The position numbers and the translations under genes are program-made. The notes beneath the pieces were generated by a model. The model was given only the letters and a program-made list of their open reading frames with translations, was not told the origin of the DNA and searched no databases. Positions 47,495 through 50,413 of a stretch of 64,000 nt of DNA are shown piece after piece; position 1 is the first letter of the stretch, and each line of letters opens with the position of its first letter. Location: NCBI RefSeq assembly GCF_000217995.1, contig NC_015676.1:722103-786102 (forward strand), in the 5' to 3' direction. The DNA comes from Methanosalsum zhilinae DSM 4017. GTDB lineage: Archaea > Halobacteriota > Methanosarcinia > Methanosarcinales > Methanosarcinaceae.

Positions 47495-48016
47495 TCAAAT
47501 ATATTCTTCCTGTATTTTGATAATTTCAGAACTGTCTCTGGCGCTTGAATATTCTTCAAGCAGCTGCTTATTGAGATCAAAGAAGGTTTTTCCCCACTTG
47601 AACTTGGAAAGAAGTTCCTCTGCCTGCTCCTTATAACCCAATATATATAGCGCAGCAGCAAATGCTTCTCCGGAGGTTAGCCTGAATGGTCTTCCGAAAT
47701 TAACCGGATTCGCTGCTACCAGAAATGGAAGAGCCCTGTGTTGCATTCTTTTTTTCTGTAGAAGAGGAAATATTTCTTCTACCTTTTGCCATGAACAATC
47801 CAGGACAGTAATCCCTTTTGTGATGTTATCTGCAGGAGAAATTGCCTTTTCTGCCATCGGGTCAAGCAAAATTGATCCTGCAGGAATTCTGTTCACATTT
47901 TTGTACAAATTTATTAGATCAAAACGGGCAAGTTTTTTTCCTGTACATTTTTTTGGATGACATTGATCTGCGTGGTAGAGATAGAGTTTCAGATGTTTCT
48001 TAGCTATAGGTGGCAT
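47495..48016 (-). CDS. tsr3: rRNA aminocarboxypropyltransferase Tsr3 (DUF367)
   Basis: This 173-residue protein matches the DUF367/Tsr3 family: [22 protein letters not shown] at the N-terminus, [60 protein letters not shown]. Tsr3 transfers the aminocarboxypropyl group of SAM to a hypermodified uridine of small-subunit rRNA. The length is typical of archaeal members. A small Cys pair (CHPKKC) near residue 18 belongs to the family RNA-binding part. Confidence 0.94.
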
Positions 48017-48205: not shown

Positions 48206-50413
48206 ATGTGTGCAATTGTTGGTTTTTTCAATAATCCTGATAACTGGGTATATGCCATCAGATCCCTCTCAATACTTCAAAACCGGGGTCAGGACGGCTG
48301 TGGAGTATGTGGTGTGAACTGGGTGGAATATTCTCCAGATATTAATACCTTGAAAGTTCATAAAGATAGAATTGGGATCATGGGTCAAAATCTCCATTCA
48401 CTTGTTAATTTTGCTGCACAGCCTATAGTTTACAGAGGGAAGTTTGCAGGAAACTGTGAATTGTATAACTGGAAAGAAGTTGATACAAAATATGCAATGA
48501 ATGCTGAAAATGATGCTGATCTTTTAATTAAGCTGATTGAGTGTAATATAGATAACTTTGAACAATCAAATGGAAAAGTAGCATCTTCTGATATGGTATA
48601 CAAACTTATAGAAAAAACACTTGATGAATTCAGTGGGGTTTATTCATTTGCTTACTGGCTAAATGAGTATGTATATGTATTCAGGGATATTATTGGTGTA
48701 AAGCCGCTGTGGTATAGTTATGATACCTCCTACGGATTTGCATTTTCATCAGAGAGAAAGGCCTTATCCATTAATTTTTGTTCAGATTCAAAAGAACTGG
48801 ATCCAAGAATTGCTTTATGTTATGATATAACACAGAACAAAATCCATCACTATAAACGTAAATCCCTGTCCATATATCCTCCTCACAGTAACCGGTATGA
48901 TGAGATGAGGTCTAAACTCGAAATCCTGGTTGAAAAATCTATTAAAGAAAGGCTTCCAGAAACCCCCTTTGGCATCTTATTTTCAGGAGGTGTGGATTCT
49001 GCAATATTGGCCTATATGTGTGTCCGGATCGGAAAAATACCAGGACGTGATTTTTTCTGCTACTCAGCCGGGCTTCTGGATAAAAAGTCAGCTCATGATG
49101 TGAGATATTCAAAAATTGTGGCAAAAAAGCTGAACCTTGAACTTAGAATAAATGAAGTTCCTCTTGAAGAAACTGAGAGTATGCTGAAGACCGTTATCAG
49201 ACTTGTTGAAGATACAGAGGTCCCAAAGGTCGGGGTAGGTTTAACAATGTTTGCAGCCTGCCTTGCTGCCAGAGAAGACGGTGTCAGGATAATGTTATCC
49301 GGTTCTGGTGCAGATGAATTACTTGCAGGCTATAATAGACATAAATCATCTGATAATGCTAATGAACAGTGTTACATGGATATAATGGATATTTATCAGA
49401 GAAATACTTACAGGGACGATGTTGTTTCCATGCACAATGGGATAGAACTGCGCTTTCCATATCTTGCCCTGGAAGTTGTCGATTTCTGTCTCAAAGTTCC
49501 TGCAAAATATAAAATACAAAACGAAACAAATAAGATGATATTAAGAGATATTGGTAAAAAAATAGGTATTTCTGAAGATATTTCTATGAGACGTAAAAAA
49601 GCTGCACAGTATGGAAGCGGATTTGATAGGGCTATCAATAAACTATCAAAATCAAACGGATTTAAGACAAAGACTGACTACCTGAAGGATATCCAGGAAG
49701 TTCAAAATTACAGACTGGGAGTACTCTTTAGTTCTGGAAAAGACAGTAATTACTCTCTGTACCTGATGCAAAAACAAAAATATCCCATTGAATGCCTGAT
49801 AACTATCAGGAGCAAGAATCCTCATTCTTATATGTTCCATACTCCAAATATTGATATGGTGCATCTTCAATCTCAGGCAATTGGTATTCCACTGATTGAG
49901 AAGGTCACCGAAGGAGAAAAAGAGATTGAACTTGAAGACCTTAAAGAAGCACTTGAGGCTGCTATCCGGCAGTATGGGATAAATGGAGTAGTTACCGGTG
50001 CTCTCTATTCTACCTATCAAAAAGATAGAATTGAAAAAATATGTTCTGAACTTGGGTTGAAAGTCTTTTCGCCCCTCTGGCATACTGATCAGGAACAGGA
50101 AATGAGAGATATATTGAATGAAGGCTTTGAATTCATTTTCAGCAGCATCGCAGCATATGGTCTTGATAGATCCTGGCTTGGCCGCAGAATTGAAGAAAAG
50201 GATATAGATGACCTTGTAGATCTCAATGAAAGGATCGGAGTTAATATTGCAGGTGAAGGTGGCGAATTTGAAAGTTTTGTTACTGATGGTCCAATCTATG
50301 AGAAAAAGATCGAAATACTTGATTATGATGTTGATGAAATGGACGAAAATACTGCCCGAATAATTATCAGGGACGCAAGGCTGATTGATAAGGATGGATC
50401 AGAGAAAATGTGA
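48206..50413 (+). CDS. Fusion: asparagine synthetase-type glutamine amidotransferase plus Dph6-type ATPase
   Basis: This 735-residue protein joins two ATP-pyrophosphatase enzymes. Residues 1 to about 490 are asparagine synthetase B-like: Cys2 (the nucleophile of class II amidotransferases), QNRGQDGCG, GNCELYN, and the synthetase PP-loop LFSGGVDSA near residue 260 with SGSGADELLAGYNRH near 375. Residues about 500-735 are diphthine-ammonia ligase-like (ATP_bind_4/Dph6): SSGKDSN near 508, GALYSTYQKDRIE near 610 and GEGGEFESFVTDGP near 690. Dph6 amidates diphthine on elongation factor 2. Fusion to a glutamine-dependent unit suggests internal ammonia supply. Both halves keep their key motifs. Whether it also makes asparagine is unknown. 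Confidence 0.9.
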   Translation: MCAIVGFFNNPDNWVYAIRSLSILQNRGQDGCGVCGVNWVEYSPDINTLKVHKDRIGIMGQNLHSLVNFAAQPIVYRGKFAGNCELYNWKEVDTKYAMNAENDADLLIKLIECNIDNFEQSNGKVASSDMVYKLIEKTLDEFSGVYSFAYWLNEYVYVFRDIIGVKPLWYSYDTSYGFAFSSERKALSINFCSDSKELDPRIALCYDITQNKIHHYKRKSLSIYPPHSNRYDEMRSKLEILVEKSIKERLPETPFGILFSGGVDSAILAYMCVRIGKIPGRDFFCYSAGLLDKKSAHDVRYSKIVAKKLNLELRINEVPLEETESMLKTVIRLVEDTEVPKVGVGLTMFAACLAAREDGVRIMLSGSGADELLAGYNRHKSSDNANEQCYMDIMDIYQRNTYRDDVVSMHNGIELRFPYLALEVVDFCLKVPAKYKIQNETNKMILRDIGKKIGISEDISMRRKKAAQYGSGFDRAINKLSKSNGFKTKTDYLKDIQEVQNYRLGVLFSSGKDSNYSLYLMQKQKYPIECLITIRSKNPHSYMFHTPNIDMVHLQSQAIGIPLIEKVTEGEKEIELEDLKEALEAAIRQYGINGVVTGALYSTYQKDRIEKICSELGLKVFSPLWHTDQEQEMRDILNEGFEFIFSSIAAYGLDRSWLGRRIEEKDIDDLVDLNERIGVNIAGEGGEFESFVTDGPIYEKKIEILDYDVDEMDENTARIIIRDARLIDKDGSEKM

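Follow-up and report, generated by a model that had tools for sequence, protein, structure and literature searches.

An AsnB-like PP-loop domain fused to the diphthamide enzyme Dph6 in Methanosalsum zhilinae and other archaea

Class II glutaminases use an N-terminal Cys as the nucleophile, together with a glutamine-binding Arg, an oxyanion Asn and an Asp. In E. coli asparagine synthetase B (AsnB), Glu348 is catalytic, and Thr322 and Arg325 bind aspartate. A fusion of an AsnB-type protein to DUF71 (Dph6) has been described before: de Crécy-Lagard et al. (2012; PMC3541065) name it in Methanohalophilus mahii, Methanosalsum zhilinae and Ca. Nanosalinarum, and the passages of that paper on the fusion propose that the glutaminase could feed ammonia to both PP-loop enzymes; in the same passages a reviewer asks which domain takes the ammonia and what role the AsnB-like domain plays. 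In yeast, the function of Dph6 requires its fused C-terminal domains (PMC3585130). The AsnB-Dph6 fusion is absent from the main text of a survey of archaeal fusions published in 2024, and in the open-access literature we found no experimental work on it. Likewise, our literature search found no test of the amide-nitrogen source of archaeal diphthamide.

In this work, we analyze the fusion gene of M. zhilinae DSM 4017, which lies in a window of 64,000 nucleotides (the whole stretch of DNA under study). An initial annotation, made from the window alone, had suggested that glutamine-derived ammonia is channelled to diphthine on elongation factor 2 (EF2), or that two amidations share one glutaminase. 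Since the 2012 paper names the architecture and makes the ammonia proposal, both the fusion and this interpretation were already in print; what our comparison appears to add to its passages on the fusion is that the glutaminase is often decayed and that the AsnB-like half is unlike a true asparagine synthetase.

Anatomy of the fusion ORF

The ORF consists of 735 codons running from ATG to TGA with no internal stop, in a genome assembled as a single contig of 2,138,444 bases. Pfam places GATase_7 at residues 71-187, Asn_synthase from residue 238 and Diphthami_syn_2 at residues 505-716. The single fused polypeptide seen by the initial annotation is borne out by the intact ORF, by its Pfam and NCBIfam domains and by the 79 fused loci described below, and so are its two separate ATP-pyrophosphatase sites, each with a PP-loop of its own (Table 1).

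Table 1. Features of the fusion gene (positions in the window)
Feature	Position	Strand	Basis
Fusion ORF, 735 aa: class II glutaminase + AsnB-like PP-loop synthetase + Dph6	48206..50413	+	ORF reading, Pfam, NCBIfam
Class II glutamine amidotransferase domain, residues 1-190	48206..48775	+	Pfam, active-site residues
AsnB-like PP-loop ATP-pyrophosphatase domain, residues 232-495, Dph6-linked subfamily	48899..49690	+	
PP-loop SGGVDS of the AsnB-like half, residues 260-265	48983..49000	+	
GSGADE, residues 366-371, against GEGSDE of E. coli AsnB; catalytic Glu replaced by Ser	49301..49318	+	
Dph6 (diphthine--ammonia ligase) domain, residues 503-731	49712..50398	+	
Dph6 PP-loop SSGKDS, residues 509-514	49730..49747	+	
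GEGGEFES, residues 683-690, Dph6 signature; catalytic Glu E689 = E188 of PF0828	50252..50275	+	

The fusion of glutaminase, AsnB-like domain and Dph6 is real. The initial annotation had raised the possibility of two genes merged by a sequencing error near the junction, but no stop or frameshift is present there, and the junction between the AsnB-like domain and Dph6 is likewise open in the sister species (94-95% identity). A frameshift or assembly merge is excluded because 78 other fused ORFs occur in related genomes and the domains on either side of the junction are constrained. The dN/dS values between M. zhilinae and its sister (0.26 for the glutaminase, 0.09 for the AsnB-like domain and 0.08 for Dph6) rule out chance or a pseudogene.

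Next to the fusion, on the minus strand at 47495-48016, lies a gene for a Tsr3/DUF367-type aminocarboxypropyltransferase. Enzymes of this type make the acp modification on rRNA, by chemistry like that of the Dph2 step; the gene is not a recurrent neighbor in other genera. Across the genera compared there is no conserved gene neighborhood that is diphthamide-related or indicates a substrate, and the recurrent neighbors resemble housekeeping genes (purQ/purS, pyruvate kinase, CDP-alcohol transferase; names read from sequence, mostly without a domain scan).

Properties of the two PP-loop halves

The C-terminal half passes the sequence tests for a genuine Dph6, as the initial annotation had read from its GEGGEFES signature. 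It scores 282 bits against TIGR03679 (Dph6_archaeal, NCBIfam; cut-off 197.3) and 235 bits against PF01902 (cut-off 23.2), and it aligns over its full length with PF0828 and PH1257. The EF2-contact residues predicted for PF0828 (compared at S44, Y45, E78, Y103, Q104, A149, E183, E186 and E188) are all identical in the fusion (S541 to E689), which carries the EGGE/DxE motif rather than the ENGEF/YH of DUF71-B12. The genome encodes one Dph2, one Dph5, an EF2 with the HRG diphthamide histidine, and one Dph6, namely the fused one; a genome-wide search found no second Dph6 in M. zhilinae. Elsewhere, the genome G076 contains a second DUF71 protein (L130) that scores 147 bits, under the Dph6 cut-off, and is perhaps of the DUF71-B12 type.

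For the AsnB half, the PP-loop called by the initial annotation stands, but the name asparagine synthetase, taken in the strict sense, is not supported by the family scores and active-site alignment. The half scores 204 bits against TIGR01536 (asparagine synthase, NCBIfam), below the cut-off of 267.1, whereas the stand-alone AsnB of Methanosarcina scores 307.8 bits. In the alignment to E. coli AsnB, Ser367 occupies the column of Glu348, Gly343 that of Arg325 and Pro340 that of Thr322, whereas the bacterial AsnBs compared have both Glu348 and Arg325, or at least Glu348. The PP-loop SGGVDS and the equivalent of Lys449 (Lys464) are retained, and the closest characterized fold is that of AsnB (1ct9, TMt 0.75). 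Note that the loss of Glu348 is wider than the fused subfamily, because stand-alone archaeal AsnBs have Gln in this column (GQGADE), and it is therefore no proof of a new substrate. The stand-alone archaeal "AsnB" proteins at L198, L206, L207, L210, L212 and L049 all read GQGADE, and their annotation as asparagine synthetases also deserves testing.

The M. zhilinae genome contains no other asnB-type synthetase, the weaker matches being short PP-loop proteins. It encodes only one PF00152 protein, which is of the AspRS type, so neither AsnRS nor archaeal AsnA is found in that family; GatB and GatE are present. Without AsnRS, free asparagine should be dispensable for translation, and the asparagine of proteins should form on tRNA. 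The AspRS (L092) has Tyr where the GWVHEVRDLGG of its relatives has His, a site linked to tRNA-Asn acceptance; given the missing AsnRS, the enzyme is probably non-discriminating.

Across the fusions, the PP-loop, GxGxxE, YRD and RxKxAxQYG motifs of the AsnB-like domain are invariant or almost so, although the PP-loop of Methanococcoides reads SAGIDS. In all likelihood, this domain is active and works as an ATP-dependent ligase on a carboxylate substrate of its own.

The initial annotation had also looked to structure prediction for an ammonia tunnel. AlphaFold models (pLDDT 87) have a pTM of 0.67 for the full length and 0.58 for the part comprising the PP-loop domain and Dph6; they contain no confident domain arrangement and thus offer no support for a tunnel, which they neither show nor exclude.

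Distribution, glutaminase decay and phylogeny

A search for the architecture across archaea, as the initial annotation had proposed, retrieved 79 loci with a fused ORF, M. zhilinae included. They occur in seven genera of Methanosarcinaceae (g1, g2, g3, g10, g11, g12 and g14) and, within the same phylum, in family f20 and many genera of family f10, which may be ANME-1, and, further afield, in two Altiarchaeota, LFW-252 and DeMMO1_7; the Ca. Nanosalinarum fusion named in 2012 is not among the loci retrieved. The sister genera of Methanosalsum include Methanolobus, Methanococcoides and Methanohalophilus. In some lineages the two genes are separate: they overlap by about 14 bases in g9, lie about 14 kb apart in f27, and are adjacent in Methanococcoides (g7), where in most copies examined the second begins a few bases past the stop of the first. 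In one MAG of this genus (L042), a stop splits Dph6 into ORFs of 137 and 117 aa, probably through an assembly error.

In M. zhilinae the class II glutaminase is complete, as initially annotated: Cys2, Arg27, Asn83, Glu85 and Asp103 are all present, and NCE stands in place of the NGE of E. coli AsnB. Among the 79 fused ORFs, however, this site is intact in only 38 and decayed in 41. Intact sites are found in six Methanosarcinaceae genera, the two Altiarchaeota and LFW-252, and decayed ones in g3, the Methanohalophilus group (g10, 8/8 genomes), f20 and all of f10; the split genes of Methanococcoides have lost Cys2 as well. In many f10 glutaminases Cys2 is retained, but Asp replaces the oxyanion Asn and the glutamine-binding Asp is lost; these are predicted to be inactive. 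At L201, a 523-aa fusion of the PP-loop domain and Dph6 has no glutaminase domain at all.

On the PP-domain tree, the label intact or lost switches at least four times. Between close pairs, the AsnB-like PP domain has dN/dS values of 0.03-0.23 and Dph6 values of 0-0.19, whichever lineage was tested; those of the glutaminases are 0.17-0.48 (mostly 0.3-0.48) when decayed and 0.13-0.26 when intact. Since both PP-loop domains are under purifying selection where the glutaminase is decayed or absent, the conserved unit is the AsnB-like PP-loop domain plus Dph6, and the glutaminase appears to be an optional part that has repeatedly been lost. In this sense, Methanohalophilus and Methanococcoides are naturally occurring Cys2 "mutants", Methanolobus and Methanosalsum the "wild types", and L201 a domain deletion.

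One clade (support 96/94) unites the AsnB-like PP domains of the fusions with those of the split pairs and of a few PP-only proteins that stand alone; it is separate from other archaeal AsnB-like proteins and extends to Altiarchaeota. Constraining the fused Dph6 of Methanosarcinaceae, taken as the taxonomic family, to group with the Dph6 of Methanosarcina lowers the log-likelihood by 128 units and is rejected, so the fusion Dph6 is not orthologous to that of Methanosarcina; constraining all fused Dph6 as one group is not rejected (p = 0.28). The NCE that the intact glutaminases of Methanosarcinaceae and Altiarchaeota have in common, in place of NGE, points to one origin. These data would best fit one ancient fusion event followed either by transfer between lineages or by differential loss, with the genes later split in places.

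Two kinds of PP-only locus are of separate interest. In three Woesearchaeota (L197:2320-2715, L202:3098-3511 and L213:4845-5258), a conserved family of 132-138 aa that resembles DUF371 is encoded near the stand-alone PP-only AsnB-like gene, and in Altiarchaeota (L215:2649-4166), a PP-only AsnB-like gene follows a hisF-like gene and converges without a gap on a stand-alone Dph6 gene.

In g47, a genus of f10 (L178, L180, L181 and L179), the fused Dph6 half is without its motifs (NSGIES, HRGEYQT) or missing. One of its genomes (G232) has a separate Dph6 of other ancestry, which groups with family f4, while the AsnB-like domain persists; g47 is thus a natural case of Dph6 replacement.

Possible functions and relation to known systems

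The explanation that we consider best overall, and to which we give an even chance, is a polypeptide of two enzymes, a true Dph6 and a distinct AsnB-family amidotransferase, with an optional glutaminase. By homology, the C-terminal part would be the sole Dph6 of the cell, adenylating diphthine on EF2 and amidating it with ammonia. The N-terminal part would belong to the AsnB-family amidotransferases, in a distinct archaeal subfamily linked to Dph6, and would not be a conventional asparagine synthetase. In M. zhilinae, its intact glutaminase would free ammonia from glutamine, most likely into the neighboring AsnB-like site as in AsnB, and Dph6 may use surplus ammonia or free ammonium. Selection retains the AsnB-like PP-loop domain and Dph6 together, and the two halves are probably linked in function, not just in regulation. 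A bolder version, tentative and in our view doubtful, makes the AsnB-like half an unrecognized ATP-dependent amidoligase acting on diphthamide/EF2 or another translation substrate, but not on aspartate, in several archaeal lineages and with an optional glutaminase. The link to diphthamide is not obligatory, because g47 keeps the AsnB-like domain beside a decayed fused Dph6 and the PP-only relatives in Woesearchaeota stand alone.

A glutamine-dependent diphthamide synthetase, in which the glutaminase supplies Dph6 alone or shares its ammonia with the AsnB-like site, is what the 2012 passages proposed and resembles other glutamine-dependent PP-loop ligases in architecture. It would suit the lineages with intact glutaminase residues, and channelling from glutamine to diphthine is possible in M. 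zhilinae itself. As a general explanation, however, this part of the initial annotation fails: the site is decayed in g3, g7, g10, f10 and f20 and, overall, in most fused ORFs, and L201 lacks the domain, yet the PP-loop domain and Dph6 stay constrained and joined (or, in Methanococcoides, adjacent), so that channelling cannot be what maintains the fusion. Moreover, the glutaminase of AsnB serves AsnB's own synthetase domain, and the domain packing in the models is not confident; we regard this alternative as unlikely. An ordinary asparagine synthetase that merely shares a polypeptide with Dph6 would agree with the AsnB-type fold, the retained PP-loop and Lys449 equivalent, and the status of the gene as the only AsnB-like one in the genome, but the score under the TIGR01536 cut-off, the missing equivalents of Glu348 and Arg325, and a translation system that would obtain Asn-tRNA by amidation on tRNA, with free asparagine dispensable, make it distinctly improbable. 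Still less probable is a catalytically dead AsnB-like scaffold that assists Dph6 in binding EF2 or keeps it in solution: the dependence of yeast Dph6 on its fused domains (PMC3585130) and the SAGIDS of Methanococcoides could be read in its favor, whereas the near-invariant motifs, the strong constraint and the existence of PP-only relatives not fused to Dph6 speak against it. The reviewer's question of 2012 on the role of the AsnB-like PP-loop domain appears to have gone unanswered since, and the present comparison makes it testable.

Compared with the archaeal Dph6 enzymes PF0828 (3RK1) and PH1257 (2D13), the C-terminal half has about 39-45% identity across the whole enzyme, a TMt of up to 0.94, and identical catalytic and EF2-contact residues; the difference is that Dph6 stands alone in those organisms and is fused in M. 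zhilinae. Yeast Dph6, with its C-terminal RidA-like domains, is similar in that Dph6 is joined to a possible ammonia source, but there the partner domain is unrelated and at the opposite end. With E. coli AsnB (1CT9), the fusion shares a class II glutaminase, a PP-loop domain and a common fold; it lacks the conserved Glu348 and Arg325 and falls below the family cut-off. The stand-alone archaeal AsnB-like proteins of Methanosarcina, Methanocaldococcus and Thermococcus share the GxGADE and KKAAQYG-type motifs and the absence of Glu348, but they form a separate clade, those seen here have no Dph6 fusion, and the glutaminase motifs are intact in the members examined. Finally, the fusion in PMC3541065 has the identical domain order and is very probably the same M. 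zhilinae gene and genome; relative to its passages on the fusion, the degenerate glutaminase of the Methanohalophilus group, the fusions in f10, f20 and Altiarchaeota, the form without a glutaminase domain and the active site unlike that of AsnB are added here.
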